Assembly: GCA_030065875.1 (NCBI GenBank)
Contig: JASJCR010000005.1
Span: forward strand, 1-64,000
Reading direction: 5' to 3'
Source: Ardenticatenaceae bacterium
Lineage (GTDB): Bacteria > Chloroflexota > Anaerolineae > Promineifilales > Promineifilaceae
Length of the DNA: 64,000 nt
A program made the translations under genes and the position numbers. Within the stretch, counting starts at the first letter, position 1. Every line of letters begins with the position of its first letter. Positions 2,764 to 58,716 of the stretch are shown one piece after another. Under the pieces are notes generated by a model. The model was not told where the DNA came from, did no database searches, and saw only the letters and a list, made by a program, of their open reading frames with translations.

Positions 2764-3384
2764 ATGAAAATCGGTATTTTGGGTGCGGGAATTATTGGCC
2801 AAACGATCGGCCGCAAATGGGCTGCGGCCGGGCATGATCTCATGTTTGGAGTGCGCAATATAAAAAATCCGAAGCTGGAAGAATTGCAAAAGGAATTTGC
2901 CGCCTTTCCCAACACAACCACGGTTGGATCGACCATGGACGCCATCGCTTTTGGTGAAGTGATCCTGATCGCCATCCCCGGCACGGCCGTGGCCGGCATG
3001 GCCCAGGCATTCGGCAAGGGGCTCGATGGCAAAATTCTAATTGACGCCACCAATAAAGTTGGCGGTCAAACCCTCAACAGCGTCACCGACCTGCTCGAAC
3101 ACGCTCCCCAGGCGCACGTTTTCCGCGCCTTTCACACCCTCGGCTGGGAAAATTTTGCCAATCCAGCCATGAACGAGCAGACTATCGACCTCTTTTACGC
3201 GGGTCCCGACGACAACAGCCGCGAGGTAGTCGAACAACTCGTTGCCGATGTGGGGCTCAACCCGATCTATGTGGGCGGTCACGAGCAGCTGGATACGGTT
3301 GACGGGCTGACCAAGCTGTGGTTCGCCATGGCGTTTGGACAGGGCAAAGGGCGACGGTTGGCGTTTAAGATGATGACGGATTAA
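2764..3384 (+). CDS. NADPH-dependent F420 reductase-like oxidoreductase
   Basis: 206 aa from the ATG at 2764; AAGGAG at 2752-2757 fixes this start. The N-terminal Rossmann fold (MKIGILGAGIIGQTIGRKWAAAGHDLMFGVRN) places an R-N pair at the end of strand 2, typical of NADP(H) binding in the F420-dependent NADP oxidoreductase family (PF03807). The central segment VILIAIPGTAV and a C-terminal DTVDGLTKLWFAMAFGQG complete the fold at the usual length. Members either exchange hydride between F420 and NADP or act on unknown substrates; no F420-specific residue can be asserted here. Monocistronic, flanked by a hairpin repeat upstream and a heptamer array downstream. Confidence 0.8.
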   Translation: MKIGILGAGIIGQTIGRKWAAAGHDLMFGVRNIKNPKLEELQKEFAAFPNTTTVGSTMDAIAFGEVILIAIPGTAVAGMAQAFGKGLDGKILIDATNKVGGQTLNSVTDLLEHAPQAHVFRAFHTLGWENFANPAMNEQTIDLFYAGPDDNSREVVEQLVADVGLNPIYVGGHEQLDTVDGLTKLWFAMAFGQGKGRRLAFKMMTD

Positions 3385-3468
3385 CGATTTACGAAATACG
3401 ATATACGAGATACGAAATACGACATACGAGATACGAAATACGACATACGATTAACGATTTACGAAAAG
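3382..3468. repeat. Heptamer tandem repeat ACGAAAT
   Basis: About twelve degenerate 7-bp units (ACGAAAT, ACGACAT, ACGAGAT, ACGATTT) start at the stop codon of the previous gene. Smaller arrays of the same unit lie at 4589-4617, 4804-4837 (reverse orientation) and 46128-46152. Confidence 0.85.
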
Positions 3469-4836: not shown

Positions 4837-7365
4837 CTAAAGTCTCGGATCGACCGGCTCACTCTCCAACGCCAGCACCCCAAACACACATTCATGAACC
4901 CGACGCAGCGGCTGCCGGGCCACAAAACGCGCCAGCGCTTCAAGCCCCAACGCAAATTCGCGAATGGCTAACGACCGCTTAGGCCGCAGGGCTCGTTTGC
5001 GCAGGCGGTTGATATGGGCGGTGTATTCCGGCCCGTAAATGATGCGCAAATATTCCGGACCCCGACATTTAATGGCCGGCTGCAGCAGCCCTCGATGATC
5101 TTTTTTGATGAAGTCAAGCGGTTTGACAACCATCCCCTCGCCCCCGGCCGTCGTCATCGTTTCCCACCAGGTGACCGCCTCTTGACGGCTGATCGGATCA
5201 TCCACATTAACAATTTTATATGGGGTTGCCAGCAGCAAATCGCCGGCGGCGGCACAAATTCGGCCGAGCGTCTCCATGTGCCAGCGGTGGTCCTTGTCAC
5301 TGTGAACCGCCCCTTCAGAGGCCAGCAGATGAAACGGGGCCAGCTTCATATCCTCTAAGCCGTCAACCGGCCAGCAATAATGACCATACGCGTCGATATA
5401 GCGGCCCAAATTTTCTCGCCGCAGTTCAATCTGTTCCTGTAAGTGAGCGACATCGAGTCCGCGCCCGGCCGTTTGGGCCAGCACCGCGGCAGCATCGCTC
5501 AGGGCATTTTGCCCGGCCGCTCCCACGGCCGCATACTGCTCGCGCAGCAGCCCCTGTGCCTTGGCCGACCAGGGCATCAGCTCACAGTCGAGGAGCAGCC
5601 ACTCCGTTTTTAATTCCTCCCACAATCCGGCCGCTTCAACCGCCTCCCCGACCCGCTTGATCAGCTGCGCTTCTAAATCAATATCGGTGAAGAAGCGCCG
5701 GCCGGTTCGCGTATAAACAATCCCCTGCTGCTTGTTTGCCACCCCGAAGCGAGTATGGGCGGCTTCGGGGTAGCGACAAACAATCACGACCGCCCGGGAT
5801 CCCATATGTTTTTCTTCACAGATGACCTGCTCTACTCCCCGGCTGCGATAGTAATCAAACGGCTGATCCGGATACTCGAGGTATCGTTCCAGCCGGCTGG
5901 TTTTCGTGGGTGACATCGTGGGCGGCAGGTAAACGAGCCAGCGCGGATCAACCGCAAAGCGGCTCATGACTTCGAGGGCAGCGGCGCTGTTCTCAGCCCG
6001 AATGGTAATACGCGGCAGCAGCCCGGTATCAACGATGCGTTTGCCGATCACATCAGCTATATCAAGGAAATCATCGTGTTCCTGCTGTGAGGTTAACGTT
6101 GATTCGCTGCGAAGCGGCTTGATCGGATCGGCGTATGTTTCGCGAGCAGCCACCGCCACCAGTTCGTCCTCCGGGTAGCGCAGGGCGGTTAAGGCACCAC
6201 CAAAAACGCAGCCGGTGTCGATGTTGATGGTGCTGTTGAGCCACTGCGCCCGGGCAACCGGGGTATGACCATAAACCACCTTGGCCCGGCCGCGATAGTC
6301 GGCCGCCCAGTTGATCCGTTCCGGCAGGCCAAATTCGTCGGTTTCACCAGTCGTTTCTCCATACAGAGCAAACGACCGCACCTTTCCCGAGGCCCGGCCG
6401 GCCAGCTCCTCTTTCATACCGGCGTGAGCGACGATCAGCCGGCCGTCATCAAGCACGTAATGGCTGATCAGCCGGTCGAGAAATTCAGCCACCTCTTTTT
6501 TAGTCTCATCCGACTCATCCGCCAGCTGTTCCAGCGACTTGTCCAGCCCGTGGGCGATGCGCACCTTTTTGCCGCGCAAGGCCCGTACCAGCTTTACGTC
6601 GTGATTGCCGGGCACGCACAGCGCCCGACCGTCGCGGACCATATTCATAACCAGGTTGAGCACCTTGACCACGCCCGGCCCGCGATCGACAAGATCCCCC
6701 AGAAAAATCGCCCGCCGCCCCTGCGGATGAGCGGCCGAATTCCCTTCCATCACATAGCCAAGCTTGTGGAGCAGTTCAGCCAGCTCGTCGTAGCAGCCGT
6801 GCACGTCACCAATGATGTCAAACGGCCCATGCTCGTCTGTTTTGTCGTTCCACAGGCGGGTTCGCTCGATTTCAACCGCGCCGACTTCCGACTCGGTGTG
6901 CAAAATGGAGGTATAGCGAAATCCTTCCCGCTTTAGGCTGCGCAGCGAACGTCGCAGCTGGGAGCGCTGACGAGCCACAACCGCCCGGCCAAAGCTGCGA
7001 TCCGGCCGCTCACGATTGCGCGCCACGCAAACGCGTTCCGGCAAATCGAGGACGATAGCGGCCAATTGGGCGTGGTAATCGCGCGCCAGCCTGACCAGCG
7101 ACTTGCGCGATTCCGCCTGCACGTTGGTGGCATCGATGACCGTCAGCTTCTTGTTTTTGAGCCGTTTGGCGGCGATGGCATGAAGAATATCAAACGCATC
7201 CTGGGTCGCTTCCTGGCTGTTGGGATCATCACTTACCCATCCGCGGCAGGTATCTGACGAGATGATCTCCGTGGGTAAAAAGTGCCTGGCGGCAAATGTC
7301 GATTTTCCGCTGCCGCTTGCACCAATGAGCACGACCAGAGAGAATTCAGGGATTTTTATTAACAT
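4837..7365 (-). CDS. pnkp: Polynucleotide kinase-phosphatase-ligase (bacterial Pnkp)
   Basis: Trifunctional RNA end-healing and sealing enzyme of 842 aa, close to the ~870 aa of characterised bacterial Pnkp. Three modules are visible. The 5'-OH polynucleotide kinase has P-loop GASGSGKSTFAARHF at ~15-29 and a DATN motif. A calcineurin-type 2',3' phosphatase follows (GDVHGCYDEL, GDLVDRGPG, GNHDVKL, HAGMKEEL). The C-terminal adenylyltransferase has its nucleotide-binding Lys in EEKHMGSRAVVIV (~515) and downstream motifs DCELMPW and EGMVVKP. Known family biology: it repairs RNAs cut by ribotoxins, with Hen1 marking the repaired end by 2'-O-methylation. The hen1 gene lies just upstream on the same strand, matching this system. 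The 3' end runs into a heptamer repeat. Confidence 0.95.
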   Translation of the reverse strand: MLIKIPEFSLVVLIGASGSGKSTFAARHFLPTEIISSDTCRGWVSDDPNSQEATQDAFDILHAIAAKRLKNKKLTVIDATNVQAESRKSLVRLARDYHAQLAAIVLDLPERVCVARNRERPDRSFGRAVVARQRSQLRRSLRSLKREGFRYTSILHTESEVGAVEIERTRLWNDKTDEHGPFDIIGDVHGCYDELAELLHKLGYVMEGNSAAHPQGRRAIFLGDLVDRGPGVVKVLNLVMNMVRDGRALCVPGNHDVKLVRALRGKKVRIAHGLDKSLEQLADESDETKKEVAEFLDRLISHYVLDDGRLIVAHAGMKEELAGRASGKVRSFALYGETTGETDEFGLPERINWAADYRGRAKVVYGHTPVARAQWLNSTINIDTGCVFGGALTALRYPEDELVAVAARETYADPIKPLRSESTLTSQQEHDDFLDIADVIGKRIVDTGLLPRITIRAENSAAALEVMSRFAVDPRWLVYLPPTMSPTKTSRLERYLEYPDQPFDYYRSRGVEQVICEEKHMGSRAVVIVCRYPEAAHTRFGVANKQQGIVYTRTGRRFFTDIDLEAQLIKRVGEAVEAAGLWEELKTEWLLLDCELMPWSAKAQGLLREQYAAVGAAGQNALSDAAAVLAQTAGRGLDVAHLQEQIELRRENLGRYIDAYGHYCWPVDGLEDMKLAPFHLLASEGAVHSDKDHRWHMETLGRICAAAGDLLLATPYKIVNVDDPISRQEAVTWWETMTTAGGEGMVVKPLDFIKKDHRGLLQPAIKCRGPEYLRIIYGPEYTAHINRLRKRALRPKRSLAIREFALGLEALARFVARQPLRRVHECVFGVLALESEPVDPRL

Positions 7366-7518
7366 AATCTATCGAACAATATTCCGAACGCTAGTTCATA
7401 ATTCGTTATTGGTATATTGGTGTATTAGTTTATTGGTGTATTTTGTCATCCACTTACACCTATCACCCATCACCTATCACCCATCACCTATCACCCATCA
7501 CCTATTACCCAATACCCA
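7366..7518. repeat. Two tandem repeats between pnkp and hen1
   Basis: Degenerate TATTGGTG units at 7407-7443 are followed by a 7-bp array of ATCACCC/ATCACCT at about 7448-7530. The array runs into the last codons of hen1 (minus strand), where it supplies the GGTGAGGGGTGA containing the stop. Confidence 0.8.
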
Positions 7519-8916
7519 TCACCCCTCACCCAACCGAAACACCGCCATTTGCGACGGCGCGCCCAGCTGATCTTCAACCGGTCCCACCGGCTTGATGGTT
7601 ACCTCGTACCCGAATCGCGTGCCGACATCGGCCGTCCACGCCTCAAACTCGGCGCGGGTCCATTCAAAACGATGATCCCGATGGCGGAGGGTGCCGGCCG
7701 GCAGCGTTTCCCACACGGCGTTGTATTCGCGGTTGGGGGTAGTAAGCACGATCAGATTCGGCCGGGCAAATTCAAACAGCGCCCGCTCAAAGGCGGCCAG
7801 TCGTTCCGGTTCCAGATGCTCAATCACCTCAACCACTGCGGCCGCGTCGTACCCTTTCAGGCGCGCATCCCGATAGGTCAACGAGCCCTGAATGAGCTGA
7901 ATCCGCTGTCGCTGGCGTTCCGACAGGCGATCCAGATGAAGCCGCTGAGCGGCCCGTTCAAGAGATAAGGTGGACACATCCACACCCACAATTTTTTGAA
8001 AGTGTGGTTCCTTGAGCAAGCGCTGCAGCAGCTGCCCTTCCCCACAGCCAAGGTCCAGAACCCGCTGCGCCCCATCATCCTTGAGCACTTGAAAGACGGC
8101 AGCGAGCCGCTGTTGGTGCAGGCTTAGCGGCCACTCCAGCATCGCCTCTTCTTGATCTTGTGCCTCAACCTCATTATCGGCCGGTGGATCATCGGCGGTC
8201 AGCCGCTCAACCGCCAGCCGCTGCAGCGACCGCTGATATTTGAGGTAGCGACGTATGATCACCTCACGCAGCGGATGTTCCTTGAGCCACCCTTCTCCTT
8301 TGGTCAGCAGCTTGTCCACTTCATGATCGCCGACATAATAATGTTTTTCATTATCCAGTACCGGAATCAGAACATACAGGTGAGTTAGCAGTTCCGCCAG
8401 AGTAATCGTTTGAGCCAGGGTCAGTTGGTAGATATGGCTGTTTCCCCATTCGGGAAACCGTTCGTCCAGCGTCATACGTGCGGTTTTGACCCGGTATCCC
8501 AGCGGCTCAAACAAATCATAGAGTAATTTTTCGCCCGTCTGGCACGGCACGGCGGCCAGCGTAACCTCAAGAGGAATCGGGGTTTTGACTAATAAAGGCC
8601 GGTCCTTGCAGCGGCCGTTTAGGGCGGTGCCAAGCACCTGGGCGATGGCCACACTCAAAAATGAAGAGGCCACATACGGCCGATCGTTGACGTACTGTTT
8701 GAGAGCAAAATCCTGCCGCTTGCGGCCGCGGACTAGATCAACGGGGTTGATTTCCATTAGTAGAGCGGCCGTACAGCGCTCGGCCGTCGCTTCCGGATAA
8801 AACACGTGGGCCTTTCCAAAGGCCAACTTAAATTTTTGCACGCGATCCGGATGCTTGTGCAGCAGATAACCCAAATCAGTGGCCGGTTGATGTGTGGTAG
8901 TGATCGTCAGAAGCAT
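7519..8916 (-). CDS. hen1: Hen1, 3'-terminal RNA ribose 2'-O-methyltransferase
   Basis: 465 aa, matching the length of bacterial Hen1. The N-terminal half (MLLTITTTHQPATDLGYLLHKHP, then VDLVRGRKRQ, YVNDRPYVASSFLSVAI) is the Pnkp-ligase-activating Hen1 N domain. The C-terminal half is the SAM methyltransferase: VLDLGCGEGQLLQRLL binds SAM, and EVIEHLEPERL supplies the E-x2-E-H metal ligands. TTPNREYNAVW and RHRDHRFEWTRAEFEAW carry the distal His ligand. In the known system it methylates the 2'-OH at the break before Pnkp seals it, preventing re-cleavage. First gene of the hen1-pnkp minus-strand unit. Confidence 0.95.
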   Translation of the reverse strand: MLLTITTTHQPATDLGYLLHKHPDRVQKFKLAFGKAHVFYPEATAERCTAALLMEINPVDLVRGRKRQDFALKQYVNDRPYVASSFLSVAIAQVLGTALNGRCKDRPLLVKTPIPLEVTLAAVPCQTGEKLLYDLFEPLGYRVKTARMTLDERFPEWGNSHIYQLTLAQTITLAELLTHLYVLIPVLDNEKHYYVGDHEVDKLLTKGEGWLKEHPLREVIIRRYLKYQRSLQRLAVERLTADDPPADNEVEAQDQEEAMLEWPLSLHQQRLAAVFQVLKDDGAQRVLDLGCGEGQLLQRLLKEPHFQKIVGVDVSTLSLERAAQRLHLDRLSERQRQRIQLIQGSLTYRDARLKGYDAAAVVEVIEHLEPERLAAFERALFEFARPNLIVLTTPNREYNAVWETLPAGTLRHRDHRFEWTRAEFEAWTADVGTRFGYEVTIKPVGPVEDQLGAPSQMAVFRLGEG

Positions 8917-9074
8917 AATGAGATCAAATCTTTCTTTCCATCCTCAGCGCCAATCATATCATCAACAAGGGATATTTTCCGGCAAAAACGACTATGCGAC
9001 ATAATTCAGACGCCTCTGATCATCGATATGCGGATTCCAAAGCCCTGCTGCCAGGCCCAATCAGGTCGAGTTAC

Positions 9075-9104
9075 TTTAGTGTACTCAGGTGTACATTAGT
9101 AAAC
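9075..9104. repeat. Decamer array 1 (GTAC boxes)
   Basis: Three consecutive decamers ending in GTAC, GTAC and AAAC: TTTAGTGTAC, TCAGGTGTAC, ATTAGTAAAC. They share phase and core with arrays 2 and 3. Confidence 0.6.
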
Positions 9105-9236
9105 CTAGCCAAAATAACCAATCATCAACAGTCAATAATCAATGGTCAATGAAATCCTTTAGCGAGTTTATCTCTATGATCTCAATGCTTTGTAACAAAT
9201 GTTTTCCCAACTTTTAACCTTGTTGCCACCTTTCTT

Positions 9237-9344
9237 GGCCGATGAATAAATCCATCGGCCATGGAGACCGAAACCGGATAAATCCGGTTATTAACGCGAT
9301 TTATTGCGTTTCGGTTTCCATAGCGGCCGAATTTATTCGGCTGC
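9237..9344. repeat. Multi-stem element with TAAA/TTTA loops
   Basis: Four hairpins in 108 bases. 9237-9244 pairs with 9253-9260 (8 bp). A 13-bp outer stem, 9261-9273 with 9309-9321 (one G-T), encloses CCGGA-TAAA-TCCGG (9274-9287) and a stem with loop TTTA (9295-9308). 9323-9331 pairs with 9336-9344 around TTTA. The short direct repeat TTTGTAACA lies outside at 9189-9197 and 9384-9392. A degenerate relative is at 28364-28430. Confidence 0.75.
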
Positions 9345-9540
9345 GGCAAAGAGGCGTATCTAAAATAAAAAGTTAAGGCAATTTTTGTAACAGTGTACTC
9401 AAAATCTTTGTTTAAAGAATTTGAAGACATTCGCTCATTGGAACGACCCAGAAACCGTTAAAGCAGTTGCTAAATGACCATTGATGATTGGCTATTGACA
9501 ATTGATTATTGGTTATTGTGTTATACAAATGAACACCAAA

Positions 9541-9600
9541 GTGTACTTAGGTGTACCTTCGCTTACTAGAGTTTATCCTAGGTTATCAAAGTGTGCTGAC
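9541..9600. repeat. Decamer array 2
   Basis: Six 10-bp units beginning GTGTAC, GTGTAC, GCTTAC, GTTTAT, GGTTAT, GTGTGC, each followed by four variable bases. The exact 10-bp phase puts every core on the same face of the helix. Confidence 0.65.
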
Positions 9601-9915
9601 CATTGCCTCTACATGCCAGACTCGGAACGTCAAAGCATCGGAAGTGACATGGAACCTGTCAGCCAAGGGGGTCGATTTGCCGATCCGGTCGCCTTCCAGG
9701 CCTGGCATTCGATCCTTTGTTCTGATTTCGGCCGCCACTTGTTCTAATTTCGAATATTTGGCCTCCATTTGCGCGTTTAGATTCTTTTGCGCGATACAAG
9801 CCACTTTTAAGGTTTCAACCATTTATGGGCCAATTTTCGCAGGATTCCACTCCCCTACTGACGGCGGATGTCACTCATCAAGAAAATTGAGCCTGATTTT
9901 GCCCAATAATATCAT

Positions 9916-9995
9916 GTGTACTTATGTACACTTTTGTAATTGTTAGTAATCTTTAGTAAGTCATTGTAATACTTGGTAATTTAGTGTAATATTTA
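9916..9995. promoter_or_regulatory. Decamer array 3: candidate centromere/operator of parA
   Basis: Eight 10-bp units start at 9916, 9926 and so on to 9986: GTGTAC, GTACAC, then six with GTAA. It ends 74 bp before the parA start, where RHH partition proteins commonly bind to serve as both centromere and operator. Assignment is by position and periodicity. Confidence 0.65.
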
Positions 9996-10069
9996 ACACG
10001 TCTTTGCACACTGCGGTATACATCATATTACTCTTTGTTCTAAAACCGCATCACGATAAGGAATATAAG

Positions 10070-10828
10070 ATGGCAAGAATTTTTGGCGTGGTTTCCCAAA
10101 AAGGGGGAGTCGGAAAAACCTCACTGGTGCAAAACTTGGGGGCAGAGCTGGCCCTGGCCGGCCGGCGGGTGCTGCAGGTGGATCTCGATCCACAGTCAAA
10201 CCTGACCGTTGGCTGGGGGATCGACCCGGTTGAAGAGCGGCTGACCGTTTATGATGCCCTGGAAAACCCGCAACAAACGGCCAACACCATTATCGGCCTG
10301 CGCGATAATCTCGATCTCATCCCGGCTGATCTCGATCTGGCAGCGGCCGAATTGGCCTACATCAATGCCATCGACCGCAACCACAAACTCAAAAAAGCGC
10401 TGACTCCAGTGGCCGATTATTATGATATCATCATGATTGACGCTCCACCCAGTTTGGGCTTCTTTACCGTCAACTCCCTGGCAGCGGCCAGCGACATCTT
10501 GATCCCACTGCAGGTGCATCCCTATGCGTACAAGGCGATCAATCAACTGTTTATCATTATCGACCAGGTGCGCGAAATAAATCCGGATCTCAACCTCTTC
10601 GGGCTTATTTTAACGATGTGGGATCAGCGAAATTCGCTTACGGGAGCGATTGAACAGGAGGCTCGACGCCGTTTTGAAGATCTGGTGTTTAGCAACGTGA
10701 TCCCGATCAACGTCCGGATCCCGGAAGCCACGCTGGAGGGGTTGAGCGTGGGTGAGTATGAAAGCAGCAGCAGTGGGGCCAAAGCGTATAAGGCGCTGGC
10801 TCAGGAGATGATTCACTATGGCGCGTAA
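10070..10828 (+). CDS. parA: ParA family partition ATPase
   Basis: 252 aa from the ATG at 10070 (AAGGAATATAAG upstream); an upstream in-frame start at 10004 lies in repeat DNA and is unlikely. The deviant Walker A KGGVGKTSLVQNLG with its signature Lys is at residues ~11-24. VDLDPQSNLT (A') and IIMIDAPPSLG (Walker B) follow. There is no N-terminal DNA-binding domain, so it is the small ParA/Soj type (type Ib-like when paired with an RHH protein). It would move plasmid or chromosome cargo along the nucleoid. Its stop overlaps the start of the downstream RHH gene by 11 bases, which indicates an operon. Phased decamers upstream are the likely centromere. Confidence 0.93.
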   Translation: MARIFGVVSQKGGVGKTSLVQNLGAELALAGRRVLQVDLDPQSNLTVGWGIDPVEERLTVYDALENPQQTANTIIGLRDNLDLIPADLDLAAAELAYINAIDRNHKLKKALTPVADYYDIIMIDAPPSLGFFTVNSLAAASDILIPLQVHPYAYKAINQLFIIIDQVREINPDLNLFGLILTMWDQRNSLTGAIEQEARRRFEDLVFSNVIPINVRIPEATLEGLSVGEYESSSSGAKAYKALAQEMIHYGA

Positions 10829-11192
10829 AGATGAATTGGCCAGTCGGTTGGGCAGCGGGTCGCAACCGCGCCGCCGGCCGTCCTGGCAAGACACAATCTC
10901 CGGACCGGCCGCCCCACCTGATGCCGACGTCAGCAGTGAAGAACCGGCCGAGACACCCAAGCCCCGCAAACCCCGAAAAGCCAAGGCGAAAAAGGCGGCC
11001 ATGGTCCGCAAAACCTATATTCTGACCCCGGATTTGGTCAACCGCGTGGCGAAAACCGCCGGCCGGGAACGGGTCAAAATCAACGACCTGGTGCGCTTCC
11101 TGCTCATCTCTTCGCTCGATATGCTCGATTCGGGAGAGCTGGAACTGCCGACCAAACCGGCCATGAGAGAGATTAATTTTGAGGAATTTTAG
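10818..11192 (+). CDS. Ribbon-helix-helix partner of ParA (ParB/ParG-like)
   Basis: 124 aa. The N-terminal ~55 residues are disordered, rich in Arg, Pro and Lys (RLGSGSQPRRRPS; PKPRKPRKAKAKK), like the flexible ParA-stimulating tails of ParG and Omega proteins. The C-terminal half is a ribbon-helix-helix fold: MVRKTYILTPDLVNRVAKTAGRERVKINDLVRFLLISSLDMLDSGEL, with strand VRKTYIL and two helices. Such proteins bind short direct repeats cooperatively and act as centromere-binding protein and autorepressor. The start ATG overlaps parA by 11 bp, with GGAG upstream. The assignment as centromere binder is an inference from domain and context. Confidence 0.8.
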   Translation: MARKDELASRLGSGSQPRRRPSWQDTISGPAAPPDADVSSEEPAETPKPRKPRKAKAKKAAMVRKTYILTPDLVNRVAKTAGRERVKINDLVRFLLISSLDMLDSGELELPTKPAMREINFEEF

Positions 11193-11203: not shown

Positions 11204-11312
11204 CGGTGAAAGGTAGAAAGTAGAAGGTGAAAGGTATAAGGTGAAGGGTTATTTTTAAGTCACCCTATCTTATACCTTAAACCCTACACCTTAAACCCTA
11301 TGCCTTAGACCC
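11204..11312. repeat. Heptamer repeats GGTGAAA and CCTTAAA/ACCCTA
   Basis: Purine-rich units (GGTGAAA, GGTATAA) at about 11206-11250 face pyrimidine-rich units (CCTTAAACCCTA) at about 11258-11312, so the two halves can fold back on each other. They separate the partition pair from the DinD-like gene. Confidence 0.7.
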
Positions 11313-11325
11313 TAACTAGGAAAGC

Positions 11326-11357: not shown

Positions 11358-12203
11358 ATGTCTGAAGAAAAAAACAGCGAAATTGATTTATTTGAACAGG
11401 CGATTCGGCGCACGTGGGATCCGGATGAGGAAAAATGGTACTTCTCCGTTTCAGATGTCGTTGGCGTTTTGACCGACAGCAAGGATGCCAAGGCGTACTG
11501 GCGGACGATGAAGAGACGAGAGCCGCAGGTGGCTGAAGTCGCCAAAGGGTATCGCCTAATTGCGGCCGATGGCAAACGACGCATTGAAGATTGCGCCCAC
11601 GCCGAAGGGGTGCTGCGCGTCATCCAGTCGATTCCCAGCCCCAAAGCGGAACCGTTTAAGCGGTGGCTGGCCGAAGTTGGCTACCAGCGGCTGGAAGAGG
11701 TGCAAAATCCGGAGCTGGCCATCGACCGCATGCGCGAAGAATATCGCCTGCGCGGCTATAATGAAGAGTGGATCAACCAGCGCATCCAGTCAAAAATCGT
11801 GCGTGACGAGCTGACGGATGAATGGTCAAAACGAAAGGTGAAAGCCGGCCGGGAATACGCCATCCTGACCTCCATCATTTCCAAAGAAACATTTGGCATT
11901 ACTCCTTCAAAACACAAAAACATCAAGGGATTGCAAAAAGAAAATTTGCGCGATCATATGACCTCCCTCGAGCTGGTTCTAACGATGTTGGGGGAGGCAG
12001 CCACAACGGAATTTACCCGTCAGGATGATGCTCAAGGGTTTAACGAAAACAAGAAAACCGCCAGCAAAGGTGGCCAAATCGCCGGAAATGCCCGCCGTCA
12101 AATCGAAGCGGAAACCCGCCGCTCTGTGATCAGCTCCTCAAATTTTCTCCCCAAACCGGATGATGATGGGGAGCCTGAAGTTGATGATGACGTTCCATTC
12201 TAG
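11358..12203 (+). CDS. DinD-like protein with BRO-N domain
   Basis: 281 aa from the ATG at 11358; an upstream TTG at 11334 lies inside a palindrome. The N-terminal ~100 residues form a BRO-N/antirepressor domain (EQAIRRTWDPDEEKWYFSVSDVVGVLTDSKDAKAYWRTMKRR), known from phage antirepressors and DinD. The central part (ELAIDRMREEYRLRGYNEEWINQRIQSKIVRDELTDEWSKR; TFGITPSKHKNIKGLQKENLRDHMTSLELVLTMLGEAATTE) matches the DinD core, and the acidic tail EPEVDDDVPF is also DinD-like. E. coli DinD (274 aa) is SOS-induced and antagonises RecA filaments. Its place after the partition pair suggests plasmid or phage ancestry. Confidence 0.8.
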   Translation: MSEEKNSEIDLFEQAIRRTWDPDEEKWYFSVSDVVGVLTDSKDAKAYWRTMKRREPQVAEVAKGYRLIAADGKRRIEDCAHAEGVLRVIQSIPSPKAEPFKRWLAEVGYQRLEEVQNPELAIDRMREEYRLRGYNEEWINQRIQSKIVRDELTDEWSKRKVKAGREYAILTSIISKETFGITPSKHKNIKGLQKENLRDHMTSLELVLTMLGEAATTEFTRQDDAQGFNENKKTASKGGQIAGNARRQIEAETRRSVISSSNFLPKPDDDGEPEVDDDVPF

Positions 12204-16313: not shown

Positions 16314-16382
16314 AGACTACAGACTACAGACTACAGACTACAGACTACAGACTACAGACTACAGACTACAGACTACAGACTA
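16314..16382. repeat. GACTACA heptamer array, ten near-perfect copies
   Basis: Almost perfect GACTACA units from 16314 to 16382, directly after the phnE stop. The near identity of units implies recent expansion or active slippage. Confidence 0.9.
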
Positions 16383-16421
16383 CTACAAAAAGTTTAGCCT
16401 ACTTTCACCTTATGTCAACCC

Positions 16422-16465
16422 CGCTGATGTCTGATGTCTGATGTCTGATGTCTGATGTCTGTGGT
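16422..16465. repeat. TCTGATG heptamer array
   Basis: About five TCTGATG units ending at the cmoB stop (minus strand). Together with the preceding array it fills the convergent phnE/cmoB gap. Confidence 0.85.
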
Positions 16466-33692: not shown

Positions 33693-33711
33693 TATACCGA
33701 GCGTGTATATT

Positions 33712-35262
33712 ATGGGTAAAACAATCTTTAAAGGCCGGTCGGCCGAACTTCAACTGCTCGATGAGCTCTGGGATCTGCCCCGCAGCACCCTTTTGATCCT
33801 TTACGGCCGTCGCCGCGTTGGCAAAACCCGTTTGCTGACCCACTGGCTGGAAAAGGTTCCGGAGAATTCCCTCTACTGGGTGGCCGAACCCACCTCAGCC
33901 TATGATCAGCTGCGCTCGTTTTCGCAGGCGCTCTACAATTATGCCCATCCCGACACGCCCGCACCACCCGAATTCACCTATGCCACCTGGGAACAGGCGT
34001 TTCAGCAGCTGGCCCGCATGTCCGAAGAGCAAAAAATTGCGATTTTTATCGATGAGGTAACCTATCTCATCGACGTGAACCCCAAATTTGTCGGGACCCT
34101 GCAAAAAGTGTGGGATCATTATCTCTCGGAAGCCAATTTGCTGATGGCCCTTTCCGGATCCCAGATGGGCATGATGCAAAAGCAGGTGCTCTCTTATGAT
34201 GCGCCGCTGTACGGCCGGGCCACCGCCCAGGTCAAGCTGCCCCCGCTGCCGTTTGACGTCACCACCCAATTTTTCCCGGATTATTCCGCCAAGGAGCGCG
34301 TGGCCCTTTACGGCATTTTTGGCGGCATTCCCGCCTATTGGGAAAGGCTGGATCCCCAGGCAACTATTTTTGAAAACATTTACGCCCAGCTGTTGACCTC
34401 CAACTCGCTGATGCAGGAAGAGCCGCGACTGCTGCTGCAGGATTTCCTCACCGATCCATACAATTATGTCAGCATCATGCGGGCGATCGCCCACGGTGCC
34501 AATACACAGAGCAAGATCGGCCGTCGCACCGGACTTTCACAGGGTCACGTTTCCAAGTATCTGGGGGTGCTGCGCGAAACCGGGTTTGTTGAGCGGCAGG
34601 TTCCGGTCACCGAATCGGCTGAAACCTCGCGCCGCGGCCGCTACTTTGTGACCGATCCCTATCTGCGCTTTTACTATCGCTTTTTGTCAACCAACCAGGC
34701 CCAGCTGGCGATGGGTGGTCAACAAAAAACGTTGCAAACCATTCAAGAACAGCTCGATGATTTTGTCGAGCAAAATACGTGGCGCGATTTGTGCCGGGAA
34801 TGGCTGAGTAAAGCCAGTCAAACCGGCATGCTGCCGTTTGATCTGGAAAAAGTGGGCGGGGCCTGGACCCGGTCACAGGAAGCCGGTCTGGCCGCCATCG
34901 ATCGGCCCGGCGGGCGCCTGATTTTAGGGGATTGTTTCTGGGGCAGCGAACTGGCATCCGGTCAATCCCTGCAGTCACTGATTCGCCGTACCCCTTCACT
35001 GCTGCCCAAAACGGGCGAGTGGGAAGTGTATTACATTACTTTTTCAAGTGCCGGATGGACCGATGAAGCGCAGGCGCTAGCCAGACAATTTGCCATGCGG
35101 GGAGAGCAAGGCAAACGTTGGAGAGCGGCCGGGGTGGAACTGGTCGAATTAAGCCGCATCAACGAGGATTTAGCCGCGTGGGGAGCGGGGCAGCAATCGC
35201 TCGTTGGTAGTCAGCTGATGGCGCCGGTGATTCAGCCGCGCCTGTTTAACGGGGTATTCTAA
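33712..35262 (+). CDS. AAA ATPase with C-terminal DUF234-like domain
   Basis: 516 aa from the ATG at 33712 (a GTG at 33703 is an alternative). N-terminal archaeal-type ATPase: FKGRSAELQLLDELW, Walker A LYGRRRVGKTRLLTHWL, Walker B KIAIFIDEVTYLID, sensor LLMALSGSQMGMM and the family-typical GIFGGIPAYWERLD. A winged-helix segment follows (NTQSKIGRRTGLSQGHVSKYLGVLRETGFVERQVPVTE), then the DUF234 nuclease-like region (GRYFVTDPYLRFYYRFL; AAIDRPGGRLILGDCFW). Families of this architecture are often mobile and of unknown role. The C-terminal domain is PD-(D/E)XK-like but I cannot point to all catalytic residues. Confidence 0.85.
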   Translation: MGKTIFKGRSAELQLLDELWDLPRSTLLILYGRRRVGKTRLLTHWLEKVPENSLYWVAEPTSAYDQLRSFSQALYNYAHPDTPAPPEFTYATWEQAFQQLARMSEEQKIAIFIDEVTYLIDVNPKFVGTLQKVWDHYLSEANLLMALSGSQMGMMQKQVLSYDAPLYGRATAQVKLPPLPFDVTTQFFPDYSAKERVALYGIFGGIPAYWERLDPQATIFENIYAQLLTSNSLMQEEPRLLLQDFLTDPYNYVSIMRAIAHGANTQSKIGRRTGLSQGHVSKYLGVLRETGFVERQVPVTESAETSRRGRYFVTDPYLRFYYRFLSTNQAQLAMGGQQKTLQTIQEQLDDFVEQNTWRDLCREWLSKASQTGMLPFDLEKVGGAWTRSQEAGLAAIDRPGGRLILGDCFWGSELASGQSLQSLIRRTPSLLPKTGEWEVYYITFSSAGWTDEAQALARQFAMRGEQGKRWRAAGVELVELSRINEDLAAWGAGQQSLVGSQLMAPVIQPRLFNGVF

Positions 35263-35304
35263 TGATGATTAAATGGTTTGGAGATTTACCGATGCCATAG
35301 ACGC

Positions 35305-35337
35305 AAAAAAAAACAAGCCACGGGGGAGACGTGGCTT
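35305..35337 (-). terminator. Rho-independent terminator of the small RNA
   Basis: On the minus strand, AAGCCACG pairs with CGTGGCTT (8 bp, 7-nt loop), followed by G and nine T residues (35313-35305). Confidence 0.85.
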
Positions 35338-35390
35338 GGCGGAATGTGACGGGACGCCTTAGTCAGGCGCTATTCGTCACTGCTGTGTTT
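35305..35390 (-). ncRNA. Candidate small RNA antisense to the initiator upstream region
   Basis: About 85 nt on the minus strand, bounded by a consensus promoter (35396-35424) and a textbook terminator (35305-35337). The body folds as a two-part stem: GTGACG 35346-35351 with CGTCAC 35375-35380, enclosing CGCCT/AGGCG around a 5-nt loop. It has no start codon with ribosome binding site. It lies 240 bp upstream of the replication-initiator-like gene, in the opposite direction, as plasmid copy-control RNAs often do; that role is inference. Confidence 0.65.
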
Positions 35391-35395
35391 CGTAG

Positions 35396-35424
35396 ATTAT
35401 ACCAAAATGTGCGTGAGTAAACAA
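35396..35424 (-). promoter_or_regulatory. Sigma-70 promoter of the small RNA
   Basis: On the minus strand TTGTTT (35424-35419), a 17-bp spacer and a perfect TATAAT (35401-35396) point towards the structured RNA. Confidence 0.75.
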
Positions 35425-35628
35425 GGGGATATTTGTTTATTCATCAATTTGGTCAGAGATCATTCCGCTTAGCCTCACATTATTTGTCTCCTTCAGCGGC
35501 CGCGGCCGCGTGGCAATTTGGACTCGAACGGCCGATCAGTTGGCAGCTAAATCTTACCCTTTAGCGGGTCAGAAAAACTGCTGGTGATCTAGACGTTTTC
35601 CAACTCTCAAAACGACGAAGGAGATGTC
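35425..35628. other. Leader region of the initiator gene
   Basis: No gene. It contains a GC-rich alternating block (GCGGCCGCGGCCGCG near 35497-35511) and a small hairpin GCTAAA (35547-35552) with TTTAGC (35560-35565). AAGGAG at 35618-35623 serves the downstream GTG start. No clear plus-strand promoter was found. Confidence 0.5.
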
Positions 35629-38097
35629 GTGCTCAATTCGCAGGTAGCCGAGCTCAAGCTTCTTGGCTACTATAGTCAAATCTACAACAGCATCATTCAA
35701 TCTGGCCAGGTTTGGCGGGTTAGCAAATACTTCTTGCGCCGCTGGGGACCCTATCTGGGGCCGACCCGTTTCTGGACGATCGTCACCGCGCGTCAGCTGT
35801 GCTACCGCAACCAGCATGAAGATTGGTTTGAAGGGTATGATGCGGCCGTTGCCCAGGAGATTCAGATCAGCCGCGCCCATTACCGTCGTCTAAAGGCCGA
35901 AATGGACGATCAAAACGGCCTGCTCTCTAGCTTCATCTCACGACAAGCAACCACTTATCACGTGGTGAACGGCAAAACACGGCCGAAACCCACTCTCTAT
36001 CACGTCCGGCTTGATGATCCGCTCACGCCGGCCGACGCCGCCTATCTGGCCGGCTGGCTTCGCCAACGGCAGGTAAAGCGCCGCACAGATGATGTGGTCC
36101 GCCTGCTGCACAGCGCCCGGGAAATTTCCCGCCAGGAATTACTTGACCCTCACCCTGCCCCCATCGCGTGGGGCGGTACCGTCGGCTTGGAACCGGTTAC
36201 CGTCCTGCAGGTGGTGCGGCAGGTGTTTGGGGGCCATATCGCCGATCAACCGGAAATTATCAAAGCGTCTGAGGCGCTGCACGCCTATCTGACCGATAAT
36301 GACTTTGTCGGCAAACAGTATTTCCGTCACCGCTGGCTAAAGCACCTCAAGGCGGGACCGGCATTCTTGTTAATTTATCTCCGCAGCCTCTGTTACTACA
36401 ACGAACAAAGTGGGGAGCTGCGCAATGAAATCATTGTCGATCGCCAGCAGCTGGCCCAAACGCTGGCCGTCAAGCCCAACACCATTTCCGACTGGCTGAA
36501 AACATTGGCTACCATTGCCCCACAGCAAACGCTGCCCCCGTTTTTAACCCTGCAGAAAAAAGGGCGCACGGCCGAAAATACGTATGTTTTTACCTACCAG
36601 GTCGGAATGCTCGATCCACTGACCCCGGACGATCTACCGCAATATGAAGCGGCCGTTTCAGCCCACGATCCCTCATCTCCACAGCCGATCACCATCACAA
36701 ATAGGGGTCGATCCGAAAATGAGCGTCACAAGAAAGAGGAAAACACCCCATCTCAATCCGAAAATGAGATTCACAAAGAGCCTCAATTTGCCCACTCTCA
36801 ATCTGATTTTGAGCGTCACGACCCGGCCAATAGCGAGCCTCGATCCGAAAATGAGCGTCTCGCCACCCCGTCTGAATCCGAATTTGAGCATCACAACAGC
36901 GTTAAAGCCCTTGGTCGATCCGAAAATGAACGTCACGATCAAGGGCAGAATCCGAATTTGAGCGCGGCTGAACACAAAAATGATAGGGGGTCAGTGCCAG
37001 AATGCGCGTCTTTTAAATACTTCCCAACTCTTTTATCACTGCAGCAGGATGAAATAAACACCTGGCTGGCGGCGGCCGGCTGGCCATTTTCGCTGGACCT
37101 GCTGAGACAATCGTTGGTTCATGCGATTTCTCAGAATGATTTGGACACGTTCCTGGATTTTCTGGGGATCGATCCTGGTGGCCCAGCCAGACAGCGAATC
37201 AGGGCGAGCGGATTGTCAGCGGTAGAGGGCACGGCGTGGTGGCTCTACGCGCTGACCCAGCCTGGTTTACAGCGGCCGATGCATTTTGTCATTGCCCGGA
37301 TGTCGGCGGGGGTGCCGCCCCCGCGGCCGTTTGTTGATTTGGCCAACCTGTCGGTTGAAGGGTGGCTTACCTTCGCCTTAAACGAGCAGCTTCCAGAAGC
37401 ATTGCGGCTTGAGTGGGGGAGTGATCCGGTTTACGGGCATTGGTCAGAGATTTACGGCTTAGAGAGAGAGCTGCCGCTCCTGGTGATGGGTTGGGTGGAG
37501 GTGCTAGACGAGCCGCTGTACAGACACATGATTCGTGTAGTGGATAGTCAGGATAGCGTGACCGCGGATGATGCCCATCCGGCTGAGGGATGGTGGCCGG
37601 CCGCTTGTGAAATTCTTCAACAGCAGATGCCCGCATCGATATACGAAATTTTTGTCAAGCCTATACAATGTGCATGGGGTAGGGGAGCGGTGTCTTTGTC
37701 GGTGCCGGATCAAACCGCTCAAACGTACCTCGAGCAGGCGCTGCGGCCGCAGATCGAGGAGGTTCTGGCGCAAATAGCCGGCCGGTCGCTTGAGCTTGAG
37801 TTTCACGTTCAAGGTGTGAGCGAGGACCAACCAACCGGTGTCGACGAAACCGCCCGCTATCGGTCGATTTGGCAGGAGGTTAAAGAGGCGCTTTCTTTGC
37901 AAATGGCCCGGTCAACCTATGATCAGTGGCTGCACAAAAGTGAATGTATTGAAGGGAAGCCCGGTGAGCTGATTGTGGCAGTAGAGACCGCTTATGCTCA
38001 AGAATGGTTGGAAAATCGGCTGCGCCCGTTAATCGAAAAAAACCTGCGGCTCGCTGCGGCCGGTGAGGATTTCGAGGTCATTTTTGTTGTATCTTAA
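35629..38097 (+). CDS. Replication-initiator-like protein with two C-terminal DnaA domain-I modules
   Basis: 822 aa from a GTG with AAGGAG five bases upstream. The N-terminal ~330 residues hold helical DNA-binding regions, one being LRNEIIVDRQQLAQTLAVKPNTISDWLKTLATI, a winged-helix pattern as in plasmid initiators. Residues ~360-445 are a hydrophilic linker with seven SENERH-like repeats, encoded by iteron-like DNA (36708-36968). The C-terminus has two tandem DnaA_N-type domains: ~WWPAACEILQQQMPASIYEIFVKPIQCAWG...LSVPDQTAQTYLEQALRPQIEEVL and IWQEVKEALSLQMARSTYDQWLHKSECIEG...VAVETAYAQEWLENRLRPLIEKNL. DnaA domain I recruits helicase DnaB and partners. There is no AAA+ or DnaA domain IV. Its role as initiator is inferred. 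Confidence 0.75.
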   Translation: MLNSQVAELKLLGYYSQIYNSIIQSGQVWRVSKYFLRRWGPYLGPTRFWTIVTARQLCYRNQHEDWFEGYDAAVAQEIQISRAHYRRLKAEMDDQNGLLSSFISRQATTYHVVNGKTRPKPTLYHVRLDDPLTPADAAYLAGWLRQRQVKRRTDDVVRLLHSAREISRQELLDPHPAPIAWGGTVGLEPVTVLQVVRQVFGGHIADQPEIIKASEALHAYLTDNDFVGKQYFRHRWLKHLKAGPAFLLIYLRSLCYYNEQSGELRNEIIVDRQQLAQTLAVKPNTISDWLKTLATIAPQQTLPPFLTLQKKGRTAENTYVFTYQVGMLDPLTPDDLPQYEAAVSAHDPSSPQPITITNRGRSENERHKKEENTPSQSENEIHKEPQFAHSQSDFERHDPANSEPRSENERLATPSESEFEHHNSVKALGRSENERHDQGQNPNLSAAEHKNDRGSVPECASFKYFPTLLSLQQDEINTWLAAAGWPFSLDLLRQSLVHAISQNDLDTFLDFLGIDPGGPARQRIRASGLSAVEGTAWWLYALTQPGLQRPMHFVIARMSAGVPPPRPFVDLANLSVEGWLTFALNEQLPEALRLEWGSDPVYGHWSEIYGLERELPLLVMGWVEVLDEPLYRHMIRVVDSQDSVTADDAHPAEGWWPAACEILQQQMPASIYEIFVKPIQCAWGRGAVSLSVPDQTAQTYLEQALRPQIEEVLAQIAGRSLELEFHVQGVSEDQPTGVDETARYRSIWQEVKEALSLQMARSTYDQWLHKSECIEGKPGELIVAVETAYAQEWLENRLRPLIEKNLRLAAAGEDFEVIFVVS
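36708..36968 (+). repeat. Seven iteron-like repeats inside the initiator gene
   Basis: Core GATCCGAAAATGAGCGTCAC, in copies starting at 36708, 36753, 36798, 36840, 36873, 36915 and 36947. Spacings are 45, 45, 42, 33, 42 and ~33 bp, always in frame. The peptide repeat is SENERH/SEFEHH. Conservation at codon third positions, as well as in the peptide, hints that the DNA itself is a binding site. Phage lambda O is the known precedent for an origin inside an initiator gene. Confidence 0.8.
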
Positions 38098-58614: not shown

Positions 58615-58716
58615 AAAAGGAGATCGGGTGTTGGGTGATAGGTGAAGGGTGAAAGGTGGAAGGTGGAAGGTGATAGGTGGAAGGTGAAAGGTGGAAGGTG
58701 AAAGGTGGAAGGCGAT
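58615..58716. repeat. GGTGAAA/GGTGGAA heptamer array
   Basis: About fourteen 7-bp units (GGTGATA, GGTGAAA, GGTGGAA) lie between the divergent glycosyltransferase and NAD synthetase genes. The same unit appears in reverse at 7448-7530. Confidence 0.85.

Follow-up and report, generated by a model that had tools for sequence, protein, structure and literature searches.

Phased decamer arrays beside a ParA operon as the putative centromere of a partition module in an Ardenticatenaceae genome

The first 64,000 nt of contig JASJCR010000005.1 (forward strand; assembly GCA_030065875.1, Ardenticatenaceae bacterium, Chloroflexota), the whole of which is called the window here, carry clusters of contiguous 10-bp repeats upstream of parA and an overlapping gene for a small protein of ribbon-helix-helix (RHH) appearance. 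The locus is probably a compact, type Ib-like ParA-RHH partition module in which the arrays would act as a parS-like centromere and the promoter-proximal array as an operator as well. The arrays are very probably a docking site (a bacterial 'centromere') for the small DNA-binding protein, because other genera have the same decamer runs next to the corresponding gene pair. Two features can be read directly from the DNA: a strict 10-bp phase and, in four genera, a pair of clusters with 8-12 units each whose distances from parA are conserved.

Iterated weight-matrix tiling defines the decamer as a pseudo-palindromic GTRYAC core plus four AT-rich bases, and places three clusters on the forward strand. 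The distal cluster 1 (9069..9108) comprises four units, AGTTACTTTA, GTGTACTCAG, GTGTACATTA and GTAAACCTAG (tiling score 26.1). Cluster 2 (9521..9600) has eight units (score 35.3) and is separated by an unstranded 315-bp spacer (9601..9915) from the promoter-proximal cluster 3 (9916..10025), whose 11 units (score 43.2) end 44 bp before the start of parA; many of these units keep the left half alone (GTAAT). The initial annotation had described three phased blocks of 3, 6 and 8 units with a G-T-[G/A]-[T/A]-A core. The blocks are real but longer than described, and the 10-bp register holds: of the close pairs of GTNNAC cores (spacing 6-15) upstream of the window's parA and its three orthologs, 15 of 19 lie exactly 10 bp apart. 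The core itself is better captured by GTRYAC (GT..AC).

Periodicity was scored as lag-10 self-match against 300 dinucleotide-preserving shuffles. The signal reaches z 4.7 over cluster 2 (9535-9605), z 5.1 over cluster 3 (9911-10000) and z 4.7 over the entire 8917-10069 region, and is equalled at any lag by 1/300, 0/300 and 0/300 shuffles, respectively. The predicted excess over shuffled sequence is thus borne out for the second and third blocks and for the region as a whole, but not for block 1 by itself, which is too short for significance (4/300 shuffles at lag 10, 132/300 over all lags). No lag-7 signal comparable to that at lag 10 is present in the arrays. Many intergenic regions of this genome characteristically carry tandem arrays with units of 7 bp (or 8 bp), as at 2550-2602, 3384-3466, 7457-7532, 11205-11314, 16314-16461 and 58634-58712; these are unrelated to the decamers.

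The phased cores are confined to this locus. GTRYACN4GTRYAC has three matches in the 7.42-Mb genome, one in every cluster (a reversed control pattern has one), and the three blocks are therefore the genome's only sites with cores in 10-bp register. Both genomic matches to GTGTACN4GTGTAC also fall inside the window's arrays.

The parA gene (10070..10828, forward strand) encodes a 252-aa Walker-type ATPase with KGGVGKTS near its N-terminus and no N-terminal helix-turn-helix (HTH) domain (Pfam AAA_31, 1e-46). Its nearest solved structures are ParA/Soj proteins, headed by the ParA structure 8ray (4e-51); a plasmid search with it returned a best identity of 42%, which shows merely how ubiquitous ParA is. 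The candidate centromere-binding protein is encoded by the next gene (10818..11192, forward strand, 124 aa), which overlaps parA by 11 bp, as first annotated. Its N-terminus had been called basic and disordered, a description that is too simple: orthologs share two motifs there, MARK..LASKL and RPxW.D.I.G. The C-terminal half is of RHH type, with RKTYxLxP followed by two helices (RKTYxLxP...ERVGINELVRxLL). The family profile reaches more distant Chloroflexota proteins, and two of these relatives score below threshold with Pfam RHH models (RHH_5, 0.032; RHH_3, 0.0089). Together, the sequence pattern and this weak transitive link make it likely that the partner is an RHH protein.

Orthologous operons are found in three other genera (G012, G009 and G028), with ParA 69-71% and the RHH-like protein 41-50% identical. 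Upstream of parA, lag 10 is the top lag in all four loci (z 10.4 in the window, 7.0 in G012, 5.5 in G009 and 7.7 in G028). Each of the three complete orthologous loci has two clusters of 9-12 decamers about 390-400 bp apart, tiled relative to parA at -563..-471 and -175..-76 (G012), -543..-433 and -144..-24 (G009), and -629..-541 and -225..-115 (G028). The corresponding window clusters lie at -549..-469 and -154..-44, with the extra, shorter cluster at -1001; G028 has an additional 4-unit cluster downstream of its RHH gene. The inter-cluster spacer measures 289-316 bp throughout. Spacer and flanking DNA align poorly across the four loci, so array phase and layout have been kept and sequence has not.

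Searches were also made from the DNA side. A blind pattern of four GTNNAC decamers, run over 52 family genomes, matches without mismatch in two alone: the ortholog-bearing G028, and G376, where the array on contig C21 adjoins a very divergent ParA/RHH operon that had escaped the searches with proteins (E 0.014 with the RHH profile). In G376 one cluster lies upstream of parA and two lie downstream of the operon. Allowing one mismatch also recovers an array in G017; at that setting a similar number of genomes match control patterns, so only the exact matches and the G017 match were used. Five 60-mers from three loci served to build an array model, which matches the arrays alone within 386 kb and recovers those of G009, G376 and G017 that had been held out, in some cases weakly. 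Across 396 genomes of the class it matches no other genome, under strict filters that lose weak matches. The expectation that the array would be conserved beside homologous parA operons is thus confirmed, with the blind search as independent support.

Genome contigs scanned with a single RHH sequence gave no relatives, a five-sequence RHH alignment returned just the four already known loci, and viral contigs gave none. Most of the more distant Chloroflexota operons that pair ParA with a small protein have no lag-10 array, which indicates that the array belongs to this subfamily and not to all such pairs. In one distant operon (L058, contig C105 of G174), the DNA upstream of parA carries a GC-rich array whose period is about 10 bp, with CCTCAAGG units and a lag-10 z of 6.4.

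A partition mechanism can be outlined from related proteins. Direct repeats are the binding sites of RHH proteins in ParA and ParM systems already described; the RHH proteins devoted to partition place one dimer on each repeat, touch ParA through the N-terminus and repress their own operon. In pSM19035, activation of the ParA ATPase requires at least four contiguous repeats, and every window cluster has at least four (4, 8 and 11). A partition module is therefore the simplest reading. One RHH dimer would occupy each pseudo-palindromic core, and adjacent dimers, one helical turn apart, would polymerise along each cluster; the two clusters might be brought together over the spacer of about 300 bp. 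The conserved N-terminal segment (RPxW.D.I) would stimulate nucleoid-bound ParA-ATP, driving movement by a diffusion ratchet and hence segregation. Occupancy of 9916-10025 would repress parA, making cluster 3 a probable operator as well as a centromere.

Several observations weigh against this reading. The proposal of a centromere-like array for an RHH partner of ParA passed the lag-10 and conservation tests, but the RHH label leans on pattern and a weak profile link: no Pfam, NCBIfam or PHROG family matches the partner, and solved-structure (PDB) searches with the protein and with its profile found nothing. The module is sporadic among relatives, the RHH-like protein being present in 6 of 59 related genomes (the window's own counted). 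One copy has decayed: in G017, all that is left of parA is the final 40 codons, although the persistence there of the RHH gene and a short array side by side speaks for the partition reading. (A BrnT/BrnA toxin-antitoxin-like pair, recognised by eye, lies beside that decayed module at L016 7300-8100, on contig C52.) The genes around the module look chromosomal and differ from genome to genome, and no replication gene adjoins it, so that a plasmid-type role is not obvious.

The window's own neighbours are Hen1/Pnkp RNA repair (a gene pair at 4837-8916; TIGR04074, TIGR04075), phosphonate transport and NAD synthase genes. RND efflux and CobT-like genes flank the G012 locus, and LivM-like and aminotransferase genes, named by eye from the translations, flank that of G009. 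In a genome of the same genus (G001), the neighbourhood of Hen1-Pnkp differs: a regulator gene and dnaN adjoin the pair, and parA is missing; comparison with this genome yielded no clean empty site, the far flank being unmatched. The contigs are metagenome-assembled, and the module may accordingly be carried by an extrachromosomal replicon; contig C121 shows no terminal overlap that would indicate circularity. What the module moves may be the chromosome, an integrated element or nothing.

A more ambitious version of the partition reading, which seems doubtful, would make this a chromosome-borne ParA-RHH segregation module with its own decamer centromere, positioning a chromosomal region alongside the normal ParA-ParB system. 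It would then correspond in bacteria to SegAB, and a Bro-N protein might be its third component. The genome does encode a separate ParA-ParB pair (contig C72, L019 7226-8896); despite it, the canonical parS 16-mer TGTTNCACGTGNAACA has zero matches in that genome. A Bro-N protein gene (11358..12203; Pfam Bro-N 1.7e-8) follows the RHH gene after 166 bp in the same direction, and Bro-N genes are also found after two further ParA genes in the same genome and after ParA genes of G002, G003 and G004. Bro-N is thus a possible third component of ParA operons. Directly upstream of Bro-N, the ParA operons (L020, L021, L113, L114, L115 and the window) have three different partners (two RHH-like, one ParB_N) or, in G002, G003 and G004, none. 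One of these operons, on contig C198 of the window's own genome (L020), is a second one of ParA, small basic-tailed protein and Bro-N, and has a different upstream array with an 8-bp period (11742-11929; GTTTTAAC type, lag-8 z 6.6).

Among explanations that dispense with partition, it is unlikely that the arrays are an extended operator alone, through which the RHH protein autoregulates parA-RHH transcription. RHH partition proteins are known to autoregulate, and the proximal array covers the expected promoter region, where a weak sigma-70-like match (9887-9915, with a score not above shuffles) abuts cluster 3. Yet autoregulation has no need of 19-23 sites, of a second cluster some 390-400 bp further upstream in four genera, or of the clusters downstream of the operon in G376 and G028.

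It is less probable still that an integrated plasmid or phage-plasmid left the locus behind as a relic without function, retained by chance. The chromosome-like neighbours and the truncated parA of G017 would suit such a relic, as would a MITE-like dispersed repeat of 222 bp (9181..9402, unstranded) that sits between clusters 1 and 2. Both genes are nevertheless intact in the window and its three orthologs, with the ParA motifs conserved, and the array phase has been held while the flanking DNA diverged. The dispersed repeat is not part of the array; it has about 40 copies in the genome, often at contig ends, and internal inverted symmetry. Outside it, 42-nt inverted arms (81%; 9110-9151 and 9479-9520), built of 7-bp AT-rich repeats, directly border clusters 1 and 2. 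The idea that these two clusters are one, split by the dispersed repeat, was dropped: with 9181-9402 removed, about 190 bp still separate them, and the inverted arms do not flank another copy of the repeat.

Plasmid origins typically contain iteron arrays, and most of these loci have a gene of the antirepressor family nearby (Bro-N here; P22_AR near those of G012, G009 and G376). Even so, it is very improbable that the decamers serve as replication iterons or are bound by a different protein, for example the antirepressor, since G028 has the strongest arrays and no antirepressor gene within the 20 kb examined, G017 retains the RHH gene and array with none nearby, no initiator gene is adjacent, and the window's DnaA_N protein lies 25 kb away and has homologs mainly in genomes without the module. 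That protein (822 aa, two DnaA_N domains; 35629-38097) was considered as the initiator of an array-bearing plasmid and rejected on this last ground. It follows a DUF234-type ATPase gene (together they span 33703-38097). At least G004 and G011 have the same pair, with relatives of the second protein in G002, G003 and G012; the pair looks like a replication or mobile-element module.

The partition module proposed here most resembles type Ib systems. It has a Walker-type ParA without an HTH domain and an upstream short-repeat array conserved with the operon; the small gene downstream of parA fits in position and size and carries an RHH-like pattern, and distant relatives of its product have RHH profile scores below threshold. 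The delta/omega system of pSM19035 combines a ParA-family motor with a small RHH partner that has an N-terminal ParA-interacting tail, as the window's module probably does, and it likewise has its short contiguous repeats in several separate clusters that overlap promoters. Its repeats are asymmetric 7-bp WATCACW units, whereas those of the window are 10-bp and pseudo-palindromic, so the omega heptad is absent; its delta and omega genes are transcribed separately, unlike the window's operon, and omega has no detectable sequence match to the window's RHH-like protein. The initial annotation had regarded three spaced clusters as unusual, a view that does not survive the six parS sites of pSM19035 (7-10 repeats each) and the dispersed repeat between clusters 1 and 2. 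The ParF-ParG-parH system of TP228 is likewise arranged as a parA-type ATPase gene followed by an RHH gene, with the centromere upstream and further operator repeats adjoining the operon, but ParF is only distantly similar to the window's ParA (solved-structure match 4dzz, E 9e-6).

The repeat geometry recalls type II systems. In the ParR-parC systems of pB171, R1 and pSK41, RHH dimers sit on direct repeats of 10 to 11 bp that precede the operon, and R1 parC is split into two clusters, as in window-type loci. Their motor is the actin-like ParM and their repeats are unrelated; the window's motor is a ParA of the AAA_31 family, so its system is not ParMRC. The earlier statement that no known RHH centromere uses such a decamer therefore needs qualifying: the 10-bp pitch is known from pB171 ParR, which serves a ParM motor. 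The nearest chromosomal ParA-RHH pair is the archaeal SegAB of Sulfolobales, a ParA-like ATPase and an RHH protein with a palindromic target that act on the chromosome; SegAB sites are 13 bp long and scattered over the chromosome, whereas the window's arrays are phased and confined to the neighbourhood of the operon. The canonical Soj-Spo0J parABS system pairs an HTH/CTPase ParB with its 16-mer parS, and the window's partner is not a ParB.

A survey of open-licence papers found nothing relevant on GTGTAC partition arrays or Chloroflexota ParA/RHH centromeres. The module may work like type Ib ParABS (delta/omega, ParF/ParG) with a ParR-like 10-bp pitch, and its arrays are a new sequence family within a known system type. 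It would add a centromere sequence family together with a protein family unrecognised by Pfam and NCBIfam, and offers material for follow-up in four intact loci from four genera, a decayed one and a divergent relative found through DNA alone. Because it pairs a ParA motor with an RHH pitch familiar from ParM systems, it could be used to probe the link between repeat geometry and the activation of ParA.
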